Source: Clostridia bacterium | Lineage (GTDB): Bacteria; Bacillota; Clostridia; Christensenellales; SZUA-584 | Reading direction: 5' to 3' | Length of the DNA stretch: 64,000 nucleotides | Assembly (NCBI GenBank): GCA_003249555.1 | Contig: QKIQ01000095.1 | Coordinates: forward strand, 1 to 64,000 | Shown here: positions 144 to 59,008 of the stretch, in pieces | Layout of the letters: each line of letters opens with the position of its first letter | How positions within the stretch are numbered: position 1 is the first letter of the stretch | Notes under the pieces: model-generated | What the model was told of the DNA's origin: nothing | Database searches by the model: none | What the model saw: only the letters and a program-made list of their open reading frames with translations | Made by a program: the position numbers and the translations under genes

Positions 144-275
144 TGCTTAAACATACGTTCATGTTAATAAATCGACATCTCAATACAATAAATGATAATA
201 TATTTTATATTTATATATCAAAAAATGAACTTTTTTAGAAATTATTCGTTATGTATGGGAAAGGAGGATGAATTT

Positions 276-845
276 GTGTGCGCGCATGATGAAATCTATA
301 TGCTCTTTATAAAAGGAGACAGGCAAGCTATGAGTATACTTGTAGAAACATATAAGCGTGAGTTGTTCAACTTATGCTTTAGGCTGACGTTTAACAAACA
401 GGATGCGGAGGATCTTTTTCAGCAGACTTGGATTAAAGCAACAAAAAACGCATCCAAATACGAGCACCAATCATTCAAACCTTGGCTGTTTAAAATATGC
501 GTTAATCAGTACAGGGACAATTACAGACAACATATCAAGAGAAAGAAGCTTATGAAGGAAGACTTTGAGTCGACCAGCGCGAAGGATTATGTGCTGATGA
601 CAGCAGGCGAAACGGATTCCGTGGAGGAGCAGTTTGAAAGAAAGCATATTCAAGCGCTGCTTATCGCCAATATTGATAAACTTCCGCATCCGCAAAAAGT
701 ACCAATGGTTCTTTACTATTATCAACAGTTGAAATATTCGGAAATTGCCAATGTTCTTGGTGTGCCTGAAGGGACGGTCAAATCACGGATCAATACGGCC
801 AAGAAAAAGCTAAAGAGTGTATTGGAGAGTGAATTGTATGTTTGA
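276..845 (+). CDS. ECF-type RNA polymerase sigma factor
   Basis: A sigma-70 family factor of about 189 residues with only regions 2 and 4, as in the extracytoplasmic-function group. Region 2 lies around residues 25-65 (YKRELFNLCFRLT, then DAEDLFQQTWIKA, the promoter -10 recognition helix). Region 4 lies around 130-180 (LKYSEIANVLGVPEGTVKSRI, the helix-turn-helix that reads the -35 box). I chose the GTG at 276 because AAGGAGG sits 8 bases upstream; the longer ORF start at 192 has no ribosome binding site. The stop overlaps the start of the membrane anti-sigma gene, so the two are translationally coupled and very probably a signalling pair. Upstream is the end of a group II intron. Confidence 0.9.
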   Translation: MCAHDEIYMLFIKGDRQAMSILVETYKRELFNLCFRLTFNKQDAEDLFQQTWIKATKNASKYEHQSFKPWLFKICVNQYRDNYRQHIKRKKLMKEDFESTSAKDYVLMTAGETDSVEEQFERKHIQALLIANIDKLPHPQKVPMVLYYYQQLKYSEIANVLGVPEGTVKSRINTAKKKLKSVLESELYV

Positions 846-2961
846 TATAGACGCTTATTTAGATACAATTGCCATTAAAGAAGTATCACCGCCCGACGCC
901 TTGATTAGCAGGACGGTGGAACAGTGCGGTGAGTTGCTGAAAAGAAAAGAAAAAGACAAAAAAGCCACGCAACAGATAAAAAAAGCAGTGATGATTGCGG
1001 TGCCGGCAGCGGCGCTGCTGCTGATTGGCATATTTATCGGTTCGCAAATGAATATGTTTCAGGGAACTGCGATGAATGCTGCTTCCGCTTGTTTTACAGT
1101 GGATATCAATCCGAGTGTATGCGTGAATGTGGATGAACAAAGCATCGTTACCAGCCTTGTGGGACAAAACAATGATGCACAGATACTGGTTGACAAGCTG
1201 GACTGCGTAGGTGACCCCGCCGCAGATGCCATATATCAGATCGTAGAGGAAGCAAAAGATTTAGGCTACATTGACGAACAAAATAAATATGTGCTGATTG
1301 GATGCTTTGGTGTCAGTGATGAAGACGGGACACTTGGCAGCTTGCAGGAGAAGCTGGAGAACAGCTTTGGTGATATGATTGACTTATTGGTTGTTTCCGG
1401 CACGCTTGAGGAAAAAACGCAAGCGGATTCGCTGGATGTTTCTGCGGGGCTGCTAAAGCTTAGCCGTATGGCACAAGGCGTGTCGATCGATAACGAAGAT
1501 AAAGTCAAAGATGTGGTGGACGAGCTCAAGGACACTTACAGTGCACCTGCGTTGTCAGTCAGCGAAACGACCGGCGGGCTTATGCTCAAATGGACAAGCC
1601 TTGATTTTGAAGCGATGGGCTACAGCGGCGAAGTCACCTGCGCTATTGTGGCGGCTGATACAGCAACAGAAGTGAAAGATTACAACGCGAAGATATTGAA
1701 ATCGTTTACGTATCAAACAGGAGATACGCAAAAATCAAGCTTTAAGGTGACTCCTGAAAACAGCGGTATTCATGCGGGGACTATGAAGTTTTACGGTGTA
1801 TATGTGAAGTATGGAAACATCGCAAAGCTGGTTAGCAATGTTGTGGGCGCCAATATGCCAAAAGCTGCCGCGCCTTCGCCAAAAACCAGTACCACACCGA
1901 CAGCTGCGCCTACTTCGACACAAACGCCGAAGCCGCAGCAAAACCCGGACGTTACGGGACATATTTCCGGGGGCGCCGTCGTGATTCAATGGCGTAAAGA
2001 CACATCTGAGACACTTTCGGGATATAAGATTGTGGCGTCCAAGACAAATCCGAACCCCAGGTATCCCGATGATGGATACTTAAAATTCATCACGGATAAG
2101 GATACCACGAGCATTAAGCTCTATGAAGGCACAGGCGGCCTAAAAGCCAATCAAAGCTACTATTTCAGCGTAACGTATCTCTATAAAGATGGAAGCACGG
2201 TCGCAGCTAACGCCGTGCAGCTGACAGTACCCGCAAAAGAGAAGACGCCGGCTGAAACGGCCGCACCGCCGGCAGAGCAAACGACCGCGCCAACGCAGGC
2301 ACCTCCGCCTTCGGGAGACTATGCCTCGACAAGTATTAGTGGTTCGATGGACGGCAACACTGCTCGATTAAGCTGGGGACAGATCAACGATGCGCGGTTT
2401 GACGGGTATAAAGTGGTGTGTTCATTCACCAACTCCAGCCCGAGCTATCCCAATGACGGTTATGTAAAATGGATTACGGATGCGGGGCAGACAAGCTGCT
2501 CGGTGGATATGACCAAAATTTCCGGTTATGCGCCGGAAGCCGTTTGCTACTTTGCTATCACCGCGCTTTATGACGGCCATAACGTGAAAAAGACGGGTAA
2601 TACGATATCGCTGACAATGCCTGCGGCGCCTCCGGCGGTTCCTGAATCCCAGCCTTATGAATCGACAAATGTCAGTGGTTCAATGGACGGTAATACAGCC
2701 CGATTAAGCTGGGGACAGATCAACGATGCGCGGTTTGACGGATACAAAGTGGTGTGTTCATTCACCAACTCCAGCCCGAGCTACCCCAATGACGGCTATC
2801 TGAAATGGATCACGGACGCAGGGCAGACGAGCTGCTCAGTGGATATGACGGGAGTTGACGGATATGCGCCGGGCGCTACATGTCACTTTGCAATCACAGT
2901 GCTTTACGATGGACATAACGTCAAGAAAACAGGCAATACTGTCACCTTGACTATGCCTTAA
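838..2961 (+). CDS. RsgI-like transmembrane anti-sigma factor with fibronectin-like repeats
   Basis: A 707-residue single-pass membrane protein. Residues 1-48 are cytoplasmic and presumably hold the sigma factor. A helix spans about 50-68. Directly outside is the RsgI-type module beginning FTVDINPSV; in RsgI proteins the Asn-Pro bond of this motif (here 91-92) self-cleaves. A Pro/Thr-rich linker (about 345-368) leads to three fibronectin III-like repeats at about 371-463, 495-600 and 607-707, the last two almost identical. The start ATG lies inside the end of the sigma gene. By analogy with RsgI, an extracellular event acting on the repeats would release the sigma factor. The N-terminal segment does not look like the usual RsgI anti-sigma domain, and the partner is an ECF sigma rather than SigI. 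Confidence 0.82.
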   Translation: MFDIDAYLDTIAIKEVSPPDALISRTVEQCGELLKRKEKDKKATQQIKKAVMIAVPAAALLLIGIFIGSQMNMFQGTAMNAASACFTVDINPSVCVNVDEQSIVTSLVGQNNDAQILVDKLDCVGDPAADAIYQIVEEAKDLGYIDEQNKYVLIGCFGVSDEDGTLGSLQEKLENSFGDMIDLLVVSGTLEEKTQADSLDVSAGLLKLSRMAQGVSIDNEDKVKDVVDELKDTYSAPALSVSETTGGLMLKWTSLDFEAMGYSGEVTCAIVAADTATEVKDYNAKILKSFTYQTGDTQKSSFKVTPENSGIHAGTMKFYGVYVKYGNIAKLVSNVVGANMPKAAAPSPKTSTTPTAAPTSTQTPKPQQNPDVTGHISGGAVVIQWRKDTSETLSGYKIVASKTNPNPRYPDDGYLKFITDKDTTSIKLYEGTGGLKANQSYYFSVTYLYKDGSTVAANAVQLTVPAKEKTPAETAAPPAEQTTAPTQAPPPSGDYASTSISGSMDGNTARLSWGQINDARFDGYKVVCSFTNSSPSYPNDGYVKWITDAGQTSCSVDMTKISGYAPEAVCYFAITALYDGHNVKKTGNTISLTMPAAPPAVPESQPYESTNVSGSMDGNTARLSWGQINDARFDGYKVVCSFTNSSPSYPNDGYLKWITDAGQTSCSVDMTGVDGYAPGATCHFAITVLYDGHNVKKTGNTVTLTMP
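2320..2961 (+). repeat. Two in-frame tandem copies of a 336-bp fibronectin-like repeat
   Basis: The segments starting at TATGCC (2320) and TATGAA (2656) are 336 bp apart, i.e. 112 codons. They share long identical runs, for example the stretch encoding GQINDARFDGYKVVCSFTNS. A third, more diverged copy lies at about 1948-2226. The near-identity at DNA level implies a recent duplication or gene conversion, so copy number may vary between strains. Confidence 0.9.
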
Positions 2962-2988
2962 CCCTGCCCTTGGGCAGAAAATAATTCA

Positions 2989-3023
2989 AGAGAGTGCGCC
3001 CCCAACCGTGCTCTCTTTTTTTC
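2989..3023 (+). terminator. Intrinsic terminator of the sigma/anti-sigma operon
   Basis: AGAGAG TGCG pairs with CGTG CTCTCT (two G-U pairs) and is followed by a run of seven T. It lies 27 bases after the stop of the anti-sigma gene. Confidence 0.8.
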
Positions 3024-3203: not shown

Positions 3204-4139
3204 GTGGGCATCATATTTGGCGCTATACAGTTTATAGAGACCTCTCTTTTATCTTCATCTCTTCTTTTCTCTATTATCATGTTTGTGAGAACAAAGGACC
3301 GTTTTGTTCGCCGAACGCTGTTGTTGCTGCTGCCCGTATCTGCTTTGCTTTTCACTTCGTATATGTATAGTCTGAAAGTGAACGTTTCTGAAACGAAAGC
3401 CGTTGCATGGCTGACCCCTCTCTTCGCGCTTTTTGTCATCGTTTTAATTATGCTGTCTATATTAGCGGCCTGCTTCTATGTCATACAGCTGTTTCCCATT
3501 CCGAAACATAAGAAACGTATAGCCTTGCTGTCGGCAACGGGAATAACAGGGGTGCTGCTGATTACAACAGCAGTTCTTGTCATGTACATGTCTCGGGCAG
3601 ATTTGACACAATCGGTTACAACGGCGCTTTGGGCGTTTTATCCACTTTGCTCGATTGCCTTGTTTGTTGAAGCGATGGCCGTGGCCGGCATGTACCGAAA
3701 AATTACTGATTCGCATAACCTGCGCCTTGCAAAATATTTCTTGATTGCGTTTATTCCACAAGCTGCCTATTCGATTATCGACTTTTTATTGCTTCAAAAC
3801 ATCTCGTTCCAGCTTACACATATTTCATACGCGGTTTTTTCGGTTTTTGTGTTTGTCGACCTGTGTTCATACTTTTTTAAACACTACAGTCACGAGCTGG
3901 ATATATCGTCCAAAAAAGAAGACCTTAAAGCAAAATACGCCCTGAGCGACCGTGAGTATGAAGTGATTGAGCTGCTTGCCAAAGGCATGACCTACCAGAC
4001 CATATGTGAAAAATTGCATATCAGCGTCAACACTGTGAAGTCTCATATCAAGCGCATCTACAAAAAGCTGGAAATCGTTAACCGTTTGCAGCTCATAAAT
4101 CTTCTAGGTAACGGAAAAACACCAAATATAGAAAAATAA
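3204..4139 (+). CDS. Membrane-bound LuxR-type transcription regulator (seven predicted helices)
   Basis: A 311-residue protein with about seven hydrophobic helices spread over residues 4-230 and a C-terminal LuxR/GerE helix-turn-helix at about 243-305 (LSDREYEVIELLAKGMTY, then ISVNTVKSHIKRIYKKL). This layout makes it a one-component regulator that senses in the membrane and binds DNA directly. No kinase or receiver domain is present. The GTG start has GGAGG 7 bases upstream. It is followed after 131 bases by an MMPL transporter gene on the same strand, the most obvious target. The signal cannot be told from sequence. Confidence 0.8.
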   Translation: MGIIFGAIQFIETSLLSSSLLFSIIMFVRTKDRFVRRTLLLLLPVSALLFTSYMYSLKVNVSETKAVAWLTPLFALFVIVLIMLSILAACFYVIQLFPIPKHKKRIALLSATGITGVLLITTAVLVMYMSRADLTQSVTTALWAFYPLCSIALFVEAMAVAGMYRKITDSHNLRLAKYFLIAFIPQAAYSIIDFLLLQNISFQLTHISYAVFSVFVFVDLCSYFFKHYSHELDISSKKEDLKAKYALSDREYEVIELLAKGMTYQTICEKLHISVNTVKSHIKRIYKKLEIVNRLQLINLLGNGKTPNIEK

Positions 4140-4173
4140 CGCGCCATTCACCCGAAAGGGTTAATCAAAAATC

Positions 4174-4207
4174 ACCCCGAAAAGTATGCATTTGCATGCG
4201 TTTGGGT
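4174..4207. repeat. Imperfect inverted repeat between the LuxR-type gene and the MMPL gene
   Basis: CCCCGAAAAGTATGCA and TGCATGCGTTTGGG can pair over most of their length around a 2-base centre. No T-run follows, so it is not a standard terminator. An operator for the neighbouring regulator is possible but unproven. Confidence 0.3.
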
Positions 4208-4270
4208 CATTGTGCTTGCCAAAAAGCAGCCATATGATGTTATCAAAGAGAGCAAAAAGGAGGAGCATCA

Positions 4271-6343
4271 TTGCAAACGCTGTTTGGCAGGGTTATCCGA
4301 AAAAAGAAAACCATCATTATAGTGTCTTTATGTGCAGCTTTTGCCTGTGCGTTTTTAATGCTGGGCGTTGGACAGAACTATGATATGTCAGATTATCTGC
4401 CGGGTCATTCAGATTCTAAAACGGGAATCGATATTTTGAAAACTGAATACAGCTACAACGGCAGTGCGCTGATGATGCTGGAAAATAAGAGCATCGTAGA
4501 GGTGCTTGATGCCAAGGAAAAAATAAAATGTATAAATGGCATTGATGCGGTTGTCTGGCTGGACGACGTGGCGGATTTAAAGCAGCCTGTTGAGCTGATA
4601 AATGAGGAAGTACGTAACAATTATTACAATGACGCAAATGCGTTGCTCCATATTATTTTTACGGAAGACGATTATGCGGAACTCACACGCAGTGCCATTG
4701 ATAGCATTAAAGACGTATTCGGCAATGATGCCATATTATCAGGAAGCGCAATGGACGCATATTTGAACATCAATACGGTCAACGGCAACGTCATGAACAG
4801 TATAACGATTGCCCTGAGTATTGTGCTTGTGCTGCTCTTTCTTACAACAAACTCCTTCGCTGAGGTTTTACTGTTCCTGCTGACCACGGGCGTGGCCATC
4901 GTGCTCAACTTAGGAACAAATGTGATGTTCGGGGAAATTTCCTACATGACTTTTGCGTGCGCAGCTATATTGCAGCTTGCGGTATCCATGGATTACTCGA
5001 TATTTCTGCTCCACCGTTTCAGCTACGAGCGACGTACTATAAGCAATCCTTCTGTCGCCATGGCACGGGCACAAAAAGCGTCGTTTGCCGCAATCATGTC
5101 CAGCGGCGCGACCACGGTTGTCGGTTTTTTTGCGCTTGTTTCTATGAGCTACACAATGGGGCGCGATATGGGGCTGGTGCTGGCAAAGGGTATTTTTTTC
5201 AGTCTTCTGTGCGTCATGCTGCTGCTGCCTGTGCTTGCGGTGGTTTTTGTAAAGTTTATTGATAAGACCACACACAAGCCGCTGCTGCCCTCACTCAAAA
5301 AAGTGCAGCATTTATTGGGCGGCAGAGTCAAATACGTGGTGATCAGTTTGCTTATTGTGGTCAGTGTCATATCGTTCATGGCTCAAAACAAAAATGTGTT
5401 CATTTATTCGTCCAGTAACGTGGCGGATGAAAATCAGACAACATCCAAAATTGAAAATACATTTGGAGAGAGCAATATTTTTGTGGTGCTCGTCCCTCGC
5501 GGCAATGAAATGGGTGAATACGATATGGTAAACAAGCTGGAATCGCTGGATATTGTGAAAAGCGTGCAGGGAATATACGCGTTCATCGACCCGGCCACAC
5601 CGCAGGAGATTGTGCCCCAATATATGAGCGATGAATTTTTGAGTGATAACTATTCACGCTATATCGTGGAAGTGGATACGTCGATCGAAAGCGATGCGGC
5701 AATGGACACTGTGAGACTGATTCGAAGCGTGGCATCCGAATTCTTTGACAAAGCTTATGTGACCGGTTCTTCGCCTGTTATTTACGACATTGCGCAGACC
5801 ACGTCAGAAGATTTTTCGCGCGTGACCATTCTTTCCATCGTGTTTGTGGGGCTCATCATATTGGTCACTTTTCGATCGCTCACGGTTCCGGTGATACTGC
5901 TTTTTATCATCAAAACGTCCATTTGGATCAACATGGCGATACCGTATTTTCAAGGGACACCTATGATTTTTTTGGGATATATGATTGTCAGCGCTATCCA
6001 GCTTGGCGCGACAATCGATTACGCGATACTCATGACGAATTATTATACAGAAGGACGAAAAACGCTGGAGAGGCGCGATGCCGCGGAATACGCCGTGGAG
6101 AAAGCGGGGGCATCTATCATGGTGTCGGCGTTTGTGCTTGCGGTGGGCGGTTTCGTGATCGCAGGAACATTTACACAAGAAGCAATGGCGCAGCTCGGCA
6201 CGCTGATCGGCAGAGGGGCGCTTCTTTCCGGATTCCTCACGATATTCGTATTGCCTCAACTGCTGATATCGCTGGACGGTGTGATAAAAAGAACAACCTT
6301 AGAGGGAAAATTGCTTAAAAAGAGGCGGCAAAATGAAATGTGA
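4271..6343 (+). CDS. MMPL/RND-family membrane transporter
   Basis: A 690-residue protein with the duplicated layout of the MMPL branch of the RND superfamily: an N-terminal helix, an extracytoplasmic domain (about 35-170), a six-helix block, a second extracytoplasmic domain (about 370-510) and a second six-helix block. Both blocks carry family-like segments such as GATIDYAILMTNYY, with the charged and polar positions typical of proton-driven members. Such proteins export lipids, siderophores or other envelope compounds. TTG start, with AAGGAGGAG upstream. The next gene, 76 bases on, encodes a secreted heptad-repeat protein, a common partner in Bacillota. The substrate is unknown. Confidence 0.88.
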   Translation: MQTLFGRVIRKKKTIIIVSLCAAFACAFLMLGVGQNYDMSDYLPGHSDSKTGIDILKTEYSYNGSALMMLENKSIVEVLDAKEKIKCINGIDAVVWLDDVADLKQPVELINEEVRNNYYNDANALLHIIFTEDDYAELTRSAIDSIKDVFGNDAILSGSAMDAYLNINTVNGNVMNSITIALSIVLVLLFLTTNSFAEVLLFLLTTGVAIVLNLGTNVMFGEISYMTFACAAILQLAVSMDYSIFLLHRFSYERRTISNPSVAMARAQKASFAAIMSSGATTVVGFFALVSMSYTMGRDMGLVLAKGIFFSLLCVMLLLPVLAVVFVKFIDKTTHKPLLPSLKKVQHLLGGRVKYVVISLLIVVSVISFMAQNKNVFIYSSSNVADENQTTSKIENTFGESNIFVVLVPRGNEMGEYDMVNKLESLDIVKSVQGIYAFIDPATPQEIVPQYMSDEFLSDNYSRYIVEVDTSIESDAAMDTVRLIRSVASEFFDKAYVTGSSPVIYDIAQTTSEDFSRVTILSIVFVGLIILVTFRSLTVPVILLFIIKTSIWINMAIPYFQGTPMIFLGYMIVSAIQLGATIDYAILMTNYYTEGRKTLERRDAAEYAVEKAGASIMVSAFVLAVGGFVIAGTFTQEAMAQLGTLIGRGALLSGFLTIFVLPQLLISLDGVIKRTTLEGKLLKKRRQNEM

Positions 6344-6419
6344 TTCATTGTGGATTTGATTAGCTTTGAAGATCTGCGCGTTTTTAAAACGATGCAAAGA
6401 AAGGAATATGGGAGGCAAA

Positions 6420-8045
6420 ATGAATATGAGACGAAAAAGATATTTATCGGTAGCGGGTGTGCTGCTCATGAGCTTTTTGCTTCTTTTAACGCCTGCTATG
6501 GCGCAAGGAAGCAGCAAGACAGAAACAGTGTATGCGACTTTGAACCATGACGGCAGCGTCAAAAGCATATACGTGGTGAATCATCTGACGGGGAATTATA
6601 CGGACTACGGCTCATATATCGAAATAAAAAATCTGTCTACGATGACTGAACCGACTGTTGAGGGAGACAAGATCACATTTTCCGATGAACTCTCCGAAGA
6701 AGGCCTTTATTATCAGGGTACGATGAACGCAGAACTGCCAATAAGCACCCACATAAATTATGACCTGAATGGCAAGCCTGTAGACGCGGACAAACTCGCG
6801 GGCGCGAGCGGTCATCTCAAAATCATGATCAATTATGCGGTGAATGAGGGGTGCAGCTCAGCGGTGAGAGAGGGGCTTATGGCACAGGTGACCGCCGAGT
6901 TTAGCAAAGAAACGGCTTCGAATGTGTCTGCAGAAAATGCCACAACAGTGACCGTGGGCAGCTCTGTAAATTTAAGCTATATTATTATGCCGAACGAAAG
7001 CGGTACGCTTGTGATGGAAGCGGATATCAGCAATTTTGAAATGGATCCGATTACGGTGACGCTGCTTAAAGGGGTGTTTTCAATATCGGGCGTGTCGGAC
7101 AGTATTAGCGACTTTGAAGACGGCTTCGATGAGATGATCACCGGCACAGATGAGATGGTGGACGGTACCACGCAACTTAAAGACGGCATGCAGACGCTGG
7201 CAGGTAAGGTGGGCAAGCTGAGCGATGGGTTGTCAGAGCTTGGTGCATCGGGCGTGCTCATCGATGACGGCATCACGCAGTATGAGCAAGCACTGGACAC
7301 ATATATTTCCGGCGTACAGGGCTTAAAATCCGCGTCTGCCGATATACGTGCAGGACTTGAAGAGTTGGCGCTAAACGGATCTGCGGTATCGTCCGGCATT
7401 GGAGATGTGAGCAGCCATCTCACGGCGCTGGCAGACAACAGCGAGCAATTAAAGACGCTGGCCCAATCATTGACAGGCAGCTCGGATGAAACGGTCAAAG
7501 CGCTGGCAGGAGGTGTGCTGGAGCTTCTGGGCGGCATTCAGGGACTCTCGGATGGGCTTGCGTCTGCAAGCGGGGGCCTGAGCTCCTATGTGGCGGGTGT
7601 GAACGATGTGTCGCAAGGGTATACGGCACTTGATGATGGCATTGCACAACTGGATGAAGGAGGCGCTCAGATTGTTACGGGATTCGTTGACGCACACAGT
7701 GGCTTTGCATCCTATCGGCAAGGTGTGTCGCAAAGCGCCGACGGCGCCTATAAGCTTTATAAAGCACTAAAAGGGCTGCCCGCAGATGTTCAGGAACTGA
7801 TAAACGGACAAATTGAGTTTAAGGATGGTATTGAGAGCGCGAAAAATGAAATAATGGAAAAGACAGATCGATTCACCGACAACGAAGAGCCACAGGTATC
7901 GTTTGCGTCACCGCAAAAAAACAATCCCGACAGCGTTCAGTATGTATTGACCACGCCGGGAATCGAGATCAAAAAAGCGCCAAAAACTGATGCGATAAAA
8001 AAAGAAGAAGATTTTTTATCACGGCTTGTTGATTTGTTTCGATGA
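6420..8045 (+). CDS. Secreted protein with Leu/Gly heptad-type repeats, partner of the MMPL transporter
   Basis: A 541-residue protein with a clear signal peptide (RRKRY, then VLLMSFLLLLTPAMA). It has a globular N-terminal half and, from about residue 230, repeated motifs of the XXXLXXG kind (for example LKDGMQTLAGKVGKLSDGL) that predict a long helical rod. Such repeats occur in YhgE/Pip-like and other envelope proteins of Bacillota. There is no C-terminal membrane helix. The ATG at 6420 has GGGAGG 5 bases upstream, so the longer ORF start at 6366 is rejected. Its position after the MMPL gene suggests an extracytoplasmic adaptor. The exact function is unknown. Confidence 0.75.
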   Translation: MNMRRKRYLSVAGVLLMSFLLLLTPAMAQGSSKTETVYATLNHDGSVKSIYVVNHLTGNYTDYGSYIEIKNLSTMTEPTVEGDKITFSDELSEEGLYYQGTMNAELPISTHINYDLNGKPVDADKLAGASGHLKIMINYAVNEGCSSAVREGLMAQVTAEFSKETASNVSAENATTVTVGSSVNLSYIIMPNESGTLVMEADISNFEMDPITVTLLKGVFSISGVSDSISDFEDGFDEMITGTDEMVDGTTQLKDGMQTLAGKVGKLSDGLSELGASGVLIDDGITQYEQALDTYISGVQGLKSASADIRAGLEELALNGSAVSSGIGDVSSHLTALADNSEQLKTLAQSLTGSSDETVKALAGGVLELLGGIQGLSDGLASASGGLSSYVAGVNDVSQGYTALDDGIAQLDEGGAQIVTGFVDAHSGFASYRQGVSQSADGAYKLYKALKGLPADVQELINGQIEFKDGIESAKNEIMEKTDRFTDNEEPQVSFASPQKNNPDSVQYVLTTPGIEIKKAPKTDAIKKEEDFLSRLVDLFR

Positions 8046-44425: not shown

Positions 44426-44512
44426 TGGTGCGAGAAACAGGACTTGAACCTGCACGGGTGTGACCCCACTAGAACCTGAATCTAGCGCGTCTGCCAGTTC
44501 CGCCATTCTCGC
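44426..44512 (-). tRNA. tRNA-Leu (anticodon CAG)
   Basis: An 87-nt type II tRNA with long variable arm. Acceptor GCGAGAA pairs with TTCTCGC, the anticodon loop reads TTCAGGT, and the CCA end is encoded. Last gene of the cluster. Confidence 0.95.
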
Positions 44513-44527
44513 AAACTGACAATTTAA

Positions 44528-44612
<85 letters not shown>

Positions 44613-44615
44613 AGG

Positions 44616-44691
44616 TGGAGCTGATGATGGGACTCGAACCCGCAACCTGCTGATTACAAATCAGCTGCTCTACCGATTGAGCTACATCAGC
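44616..44691 (-). tRNA. tRNA-Thr (anticodon TGT)
   Basis: A 76-nt tRNA with acceptor GCTGATG, anticodon loop TTTGTAA, TTCGAGT T-loop and encoded CCA. Confidence 0.95.
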
Positions 44692-44696
44692 GAAAG

Positions 44697-44772
44697 TGGT
44701 GCCTCAGGACAGAATCGAACTGTCGACACAGGGATTTTCAGTCCCTTGCTCTACCGACTGAGCTACCGAGGC
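44697..44772 (-). tRNA. tRNA-Phe (anticodon GAA)
   Basis: A 76-nt tRNA with acceptor GCCTCGG, anticodon loop CTGAAAA and encoded CCA. It is the tRNA sensed by the pheST T-box, whose UGGU matches its ACCA end. Confidence 0.95.
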
Positions 44773-44781
44773 AAGTATGGA

Positions 44782-44858
44782 TGGCGACCCGGAAGGGACT
44801 CGAACCCTCGACCTCTAGCGTGACAGGCTAGCGTTCTAACCAACTGAACTACCGGGCC
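44782..44858 (-). tRNA. tRNA-Asp (anticodon GTC)
   Basis: A 77-nt tRNA with acceptor GGCCCGG/CCGGGTC, anticodon loop CTGTCAC, discriminator G and encoded CCA. Confidence 0.95.
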
Positions 44859-44867
44859 ATATTTTTT

Positions 44868-44944
44868 TGGTGGGGCCTCAGGGACTCGAACCCCGGACCG
44901 ATCGGTTATGAGCCGACTGCTCTAACCAACTGAGCTAAGGCCCC
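44868..44944 (-). tRNA. tRNA-Met (anticodon CAT)
   Basis: A 77-nt tRNA with acceptor GGGGCCT/AGGCCCC, anticodon loop CTCATAA and encoded CCA. The acceptor starts with a full G-C pair, so it is not initiator tRNA. Elongator Met is the default reading, but a lysidine-modified Ile2 tRNA would have the same anticodon. Confidence 0.85.
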
Positions 44945-44963
44945 AAAACCTTAAAGCTTAGAA

Positions 44964-45038
44964 TGGTGACCCCTAGGAGACTCGAACTCCTGTTACCGCC
45001 GTGAAAGGGCGGTGTCTTAACCGCTTGACCAAGGGGCC
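44964..45038 (-). tRNA. tRNA-Glu (anticodon TTC)
   Basis: A 75-nt tRNA with acceptor GGCCCCT, anticodon loop CTTTCAC and encoded CCA. Confidence 0.95.
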
Positions 45039-45065
45039 ATATTGTCTAAGATCACGAGAGATACC

Positions 45066-45142
45066 TGGTCGGGGTGGAGGGACTTGAACCCCCGGCCCCA
45101 TGCTCCCAAAGCACGTGCGCTACCAAACTGCGCTACACCCCG
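45066..45142 (-). tRNA. tRNA-Pro (anticodon TGG)
   Basis: A 77-nt tRNA with acceptor CGGGGTG/CACCCCG, anticodon loop TTTGGGA and encoded CCA. First gene of the cluster. Confidence 0.95.
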
Positions 45143-58932: not shown

Positions 58933-59008
58933 AGGGGAGTGGCTCAATTGGTAGAGCATCGGTCTCCAAAACCGACGGTTGCGTGTTCGAGTCGCGTCTC
59001 CCCTGCCA
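58933..59008 (+). tRNA. tRNA-Trp (anticodon CCA)
   Basis: A 76-nt tRNA with acceptor AGGGGAG/CTCCCCT, anticodon loop CTCCAAA, discriminator G, and encoded CCA. It stands alone with its own promoter. Confidence 0.96.

Follow-up and report, generated by a model that had tools for sequence, protein, structure and literature searches.

An RsgI-type SEAL domain in the presumed anti-sigma partner of an ECF sigma factor from a Clostridia bacterium

Among alternative sigma factors the ECF family is the largest, and work on self-cleaving SEAL domains has dealt with them as a component of SigI signalling. The two-gene operon close to the start of the window (the whole analysed stretch of 64,000 nucleotides) raises the question of whether such a domain can serve an ECF sigma factor as well. 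Our analysis shows that the SEAL domain as a sensor is not bound to SigI, and we consider it highly likely that the operon encodes an ECF sigma/anti-sigma pair in which an RsgI-type self-cleaving SEAL domain provides the site-1 step. The features on which this reading is based are the following:

226–250, plus strand: ECF-type promoter, TGAAC-N16-CGTT
260–267, plus strand: ribosome-binding site of the sigma gene, AAAGGAGG, from reading of the sequence
276–845, plus strand: ECF sigma factor gene, 189 amino acids, GTG start
838–2961, plus strand: anti-sigma gene, encoding a membrane protein of 707 amino acids with a SEAL domain and an FN3 array (RsgI_M match, gene overlap, conserved pair)
838–981, plus strand: residues 1–48, cytoplasmic, presumed anti-sigma tip, not RsgI_N (PF12791 test, hhalign, model helices)
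982–1056, plus strand: transmembrane helix, residues about 49–73, with Ala-Ala (VPAAA) as in RsgI helices (sequence and model)
1078–1470, plus strand: SEAL (RsgI periplasmic) domain, residues about 81–211 (RsgI profile hits, Foldseek)
1108–1113, plus strand: codons of Asn91-Pro92 (AAT CCG), presumed self-cleavage site (N-P-S invariance, solved RsgI chain starts)
1549–1857, plus strand: divergent FN3-type domain, residues about 238–340 (beta-strand pattern of the model; conserved in the relatives L081 and L082)
1858–1941, plus strand: Pro/Thr/Ser-rich linker, predicted to be disordered (pLDDT below 50 at residues 347–367)
1942–2232, plus strand: FN3-like repeat 1
2320–2622, plus strand: FN3-like repeat 2, its protein 87% identical to repeat 3
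2656–2958, plus strand: FN3-like repeat 3
2988–3017, plus strand: probable intrinsic terminator of the two-gene operon (11-pair stem, then a T run)

The ATG of the anti-sigma gene at 838 lies inside the sigma gene, which results in an 8-base overlap with the end of the latter at 845, and the sigma and SEAL anti-sigma genes overlap or abut in every relative. Since the pair is conserved in independent genomes, an assembly artefact was rejected. The hairpin at 2988–3017 probably closes the operon; a terminator scan found five candidates compared to 3.3 in shuffles, and the position of this one is its main support. The original prediction had described overlapping genes, a membrane protein with the DINPSV motif just outside the helix and beta-type repeats at the far end. 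All three descriptions hold, and to the last it can be added that there are four domains, one of them divergent.

Directly upstream of the operon, at the contig start, the 3′ end of a group II intron was found (68–143; Rfam RF00029, 47.5 bits), and the promoter at 226–250 is intact downstream of this intron end. After the operon, at 3204–8045, a LuxR-type regulator, an MMPL exporter and an unassigned membrane-associated protein are encoded. This order is kept in L082, whereas in L081 these genes do not follow the operon. As they are separated from the operon by the terminator and kept in only one of these two relatives, they are weak candidates for sigma targets and were rejected as such. No carbohydrate gene adjoins the operon in the window. 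Further downstream, eight tRNA genes are clustered on the minus strand (44429–45142) and another tRNA gene lies on the plus strand (58933–59005).

The product of 276–845 is an ECF sigma factor, not SigI. It is a short protein with sigma-70 regions 2 and 4 only, matching Pfam Sigma70_r2 at E 2.7e-14 and Sigma70_r4_2 at 2e-12, and it scores as sigma70-ECF (TIGR02937) at 2.7e-31. The promoter agrees with this assignment: GAAC-N16-CGT(T/C) closely precedes the sigma gene in all 12 operons of the window kind, some of which are closely related. The conserved promoter was seen solely at a spacer of 16 (spacers from 12 to 21 were tried), and shuffles gave 0.013 hits on average. A tighter pattern has one match in the window, that of the operon, compared to 0.11 expected. 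The T-run after AAC is consistent with the published description of ECF promoters (PMC6056542), and the A-tract/CGWA promoters of SigI are unlike GAAC-N16-CGTT (PMC10575876). At the sequence level, 12 of 12 operons have a −35 element containing AAC and a −10 element containing CGT, so that the sigma operon is probably autoregulated. No target outside the operon is claimed, because GAAC-N16-CGTY has three matches across the window against 3.6 expected and TGAACTTT-N13-CGTY occurred in five genomes about as often as in the reversed control, with the exception of the operon itself.

The periplasmic part of the second protein belongs to the RsgI type. Residues 85–208 match Pfam RsgI_M with an E-value of 1.9e-20 (74 bits, cut-off 25). 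When a profile of 29 relatives was compared with the PDB, RsgI domains were matched at 3e-27 to 3e-21, namely RsgI9 (8u9o, 3e-27), RsgI1 (8hep), RsgI6 (8her), B. subtilis RsgI (8t9n) and RsgI2 (8heq, 8hdj), and there was no match other than RsgI at E ≤ 0.01. In an AlphaFold2 model of residues 1–231, pLDDT is mostly 91–98 from residue 81 to 210. A Foldseek search with this model returned, at E ≤ 0.001, only RsgI periplasmic domains, from the same PDB entries as the profile search. Judged by the model, the domain around DINPSV is thus an RsgI periplasmic fold. The presumed cleavage motif reads D89-I-N91-P92-S93-V, and no residues other than N, P and S are invariant among 39 relatives. In the model, N91-P92 is placed in the turn that joins strand 84–89 to strand 93–98. 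The motif proline is the first residue of five solved RsgI chains in the PDB, which fits the self-cleavage that has been described for RsgI (PMC12203970); the XAA motifs of RsgI membrane helices are described in the same work.

The cytoplasmic tip is of a different kind. RsgI_N (PF12791) was detected in none of the 11 relatives of the window protein compared to 13 of 13 SigI-linked controls, and profile comparison with hhalign showed no relation between the tip and RsgI_N. In a set of 57 SEAL proteins linked to a sigma factor, tip and sigma factor go together in type: RsgI_N is carried by 0 of 24 ECF-linked proteins and by 31 of 33 others, the two exceptions (L039, L041) having ambiguous gene starts or neighbours. 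In the searched genomes of the family of the window protein, RsgI_N is absent and no SigI scores above the cut-off. The tips of the window kind form a short, helical family (MxDIDKxL...PS..L..KT) for which no Pfam or PDB relative was found, and residues 1–48 gave only chance hits in the PDB. No recognisable relation to known anti-sigma domains was seen, and no sequence match to any solved one. The monomer model predicts a short helix at residues 4–10 and a long helix that runs from residue 20 into the membrane. In outline this is nearer to the two-helix class II than to class I, which is a three-helix bundle plus a fourth helix; the sequence matches neither. Residues 1–48 presumably act as the anti-sigma tip for the ECF partner. 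The original prediction had also described a partner with ECF regions 2 and 4 rather than SigI features and an N-terminal segment unlike the RsgI anti-sigma domain, had expected an RsgI-type fold around DINPSV, and had suggested that the RsgI sensing stalk has been joined to a different class of sigma factor. The first three points are borne out by the data above, the ECF-SEAL pair recurs in independent genomes, and the interpretation as a whole is supported.

The extracellular end carries four FN3-type domains, one divergent and three regular. Foldseek matched the repeat model to fibronectin with an E-value of 1.5e-15, which assigns it to the FN3 fold. Support from sequence is weak, with Pfam fn3 reaching E ≤ 1 in 6 of 12 repeats (best 2.7e-5). 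With 82% identical DNA, repeats 2 and 3 are a recent duplication. Repeats of the window type were not found elsewhere in the genome beyond the anti-sigma gene, and no carbohydrate-binding family was found in the window protein with Pfam. The number of regular repeats ranges from 2 to 7 among the relatives. In L131, a locus of another Clostridia genome, FN3-like repeats stand beside S-layer-homology domains, which marks them as surface modules.

From these data we infer how the pair would work, that is, the cleavage, the binding of sigma, the order of proteolysis and the signal or ligand. The ECF sigma factor would be kept at the membrane by residues 1–48. Self-cleavage of the SEAL domain at Asn91-Pro92 would leave its two halves joined in one beta-sheet until a signal on the FN3 array, either a bound ligand or tension, draws off the C-terminal part. 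RseP would then cut the transmembrane helix and ClpXP would remove the remainder. The freed sigma factor would start transcription at GAAC-N16-CGTT, that of its own operon at the least. For the cleavage and for the RseP and ClpXP steps we follow C. thermocellum RsgI, in which they are known (PMC12203970). RseP is present, with 237 bits compared to a cut-off of 147.6.

Other explanations differ in which part of this reading they give up. It might be argued that the operon is a regular SigI-RsgI system with a diverged sigma factor and a diverged N-terminus, and the periplasmic domain is indeed truly of RsgI type. This is very improbable, however, as SigI lacks region 4 (PMC6056542) and the sigma factor of the window has it, the promoter with AAC and CGTT is of ECF type, the tip is unrelated to RsgI_N in the profile comparison, and both kinds of operon occur in the genome G092. 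With RsgI_N absent from the tips of 11 of 11 relatives and SigI absent from the genomes of the family, this explanation was rejected. It is equally hard to believe that the second gene encodes an unrelated surface protein that is merely co-transcribed with the sigma gene; the two genes overlap or abut in every relative, and across the 57 proteins the type of N-terminus follows that of the sigma factor.

An explanation that keeps the pair would make the SEAL domain a structural stalk that does not cleave itself, the sigma factor being freed in another way, for example by a separate site-1 protease. The motif is not uniform, as NPE replaces NPS in some SigI-linked relatives. On the other hand, invariance of N, P and S would not be required of a mere stalk, and the model shows the strand-turn-strand arrangement of RsgI around the site, so that we regard a stalk of this kind as unlikely. 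Finally, the mechanism may run as proposed with the FN3 array being a specific glycan receptor, which would make the switch a sensor of nutrients or surface polymers; a surface glycan had been suggested as the ligand in the original prediction. The carbohydrate-binding C-termini of C. thermocellum RsgI proteins (PMC12203970) and the surface location implied by the repeats of L131 speak for such a receptor. The lack of a carbohydrate-binding family in the protein and of an adjoining carbohydrate gene speaks against it, and the varying repeat number together with the recent duplication would fit a length-setting stalk equally well. A glycan receptor is therefore possible but doubtful, and the signal on the FN3 array may be tension on a stalk or ligand binding. 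The most likely reading is regulated intramembrane proteolysis of the RsgI type with an ECF sigma factor as its target.

Among known systems, SigI-RsgI of B. subtilis and C. thermocellum (RsgI1–9) shares with the window a membrane protein with one helix encoded downstream of its sigma gene, a SEAL domain with D-I-N-P-S, C-terminal sensor modules and Ala-Ala in the membrane helix. The window differs by its ECF sigma factor with region 4, by a tip that is not RsgI_N, and by GAAC-N16-CGTT in place of A-tract/CGWA. The RsiW, RseA and RsiV type of membrane anti-sigma factor, which is cut by regulated proteolysis, has in common with the window an ECF partner, membrane anchoring, a helical cytoplasmic part and an expected RseP step. 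Unlike in that type, self-cleavage and not a site-1 protease is expected to make the first cut, and the tip has no match to solved anti-sigma domains. In the primary SEAL-domain literature, ECF-SEAL pairs may have been mentioned before. The nearest published precedent is sigma24C-Rsi24C of C. thermocellum (Cthe_1470–1471), in which the ECF factor is combined with a glycan sensor and SEAL is absent, and which has been counted as one of the RsgI-like systems (PMC3990059). It shares the ECF sigma factor, the membrane anti-sigma factor with one helix and a large extracellular sensor, in this case a GH5 module described as a cellulose-binding biosensor (PMC3526467). We read the locus in the genome G329, taken as C. 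thermocellum. Rsi24C differs in having a zinc-finger-type tip (H-x3-C-x2-C) and GH5 after the helix, with neither an RsgI_M match nor an NPS motif, and the nine RsgI_M matches of G329 all lie away from this locus. The window protein has SEAL and no GH5 and is not of this type; identity of the two systems was rejected.

In the sampled genomes of the class, RsgI_M was found in 135 of 391. The gene upstream of RsgI_M encodes SigI or an ECF factor, in proportions that are not frequencies, as loci were taken from both ends of the score list. A whole-protein scan of named genomes gave no match, but relatives were found by a scan with the SEAL alignment. Of nine distant ECF partners, eight matched both regions 2 and 4 in Pfam and the remaining one matched region 2, compared to a weak region 2 alone in the SigI control. 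The pairing is found repeatedly throughout Clostridia, as well as in two Izimaplasma/Acholeplasmatales genomes. FN3 arrays are carried by the ECF-linked SEAL proteins of the window, L081, L082, L130, L135, L156, L158, L160 and L165; other tails consist of PepSY repeats (L030) or are long and polar (L004, L013, L022). In G092, an ECF-SEAL-FN3 operon (L135) coexists with a SigI-RsgI operon (L136).

In the tree, the window protein falls within an ECF-only group of 12 (support 99/98). The best tree requires linkage to switch four times between ECF and SigI, and in none of the bootstrap trees do the ECF-linked proteins form one group. As the AU test still allows one ECF clade (p 0.084), several independent ECF swaps are suggested, not established. 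It may be, with about even chances, that SEAL is a portable, SigI-independent strain-release switch that was joined more than once to different ECF lineages, each with an unrelated tip, and that the companion SEAL lipoprotein of some operons is a second sensor subunit or a decoy. If SEAL also drives ECF sigma factors, envelope signalling by self-cleavage would be wider than SigI systems, and the anti-sigma tip would be exchangeable while the SEAL switch stays. The ECF-linked group presumably offers a previously unrecognised short anti-sigma domain, and its natural series of 2 to 7 FN3 repeats is suited to direct tests of length or tension dependence.

Several further arrangements of SEAL were observed. 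A second ECF-SEAL operon is present in the genome of the window (L004, contig C41, 1113–4031), where the third gene encodes a SEAL lipoprotein with the lipobox LTGC, DVNPS and a SEAL domain and without an anti-sigma part. The same lipoprotein occurs in L005, from the same genus. In L083 (4059–6280) and L084 (2965–4634), RsgI-type proteins are followed by SEAL lipoproteins, both with NPE replacing NPS. Another phylum-level lineage, Izimaplasma/Acholeplasmatales, combines an ECF sigma factor, a SEAL anti-sigma factor and a SEAL lipoprotein (L162, 40–2319; L163, 2525–4828). In a Mollicutes bacterium (L167, 189–4592), SEAL is located on a surface protein of 1467 residues that has a metallopeptidase-like stretch and InlB-type repeats and carries no anti-sigma domain.
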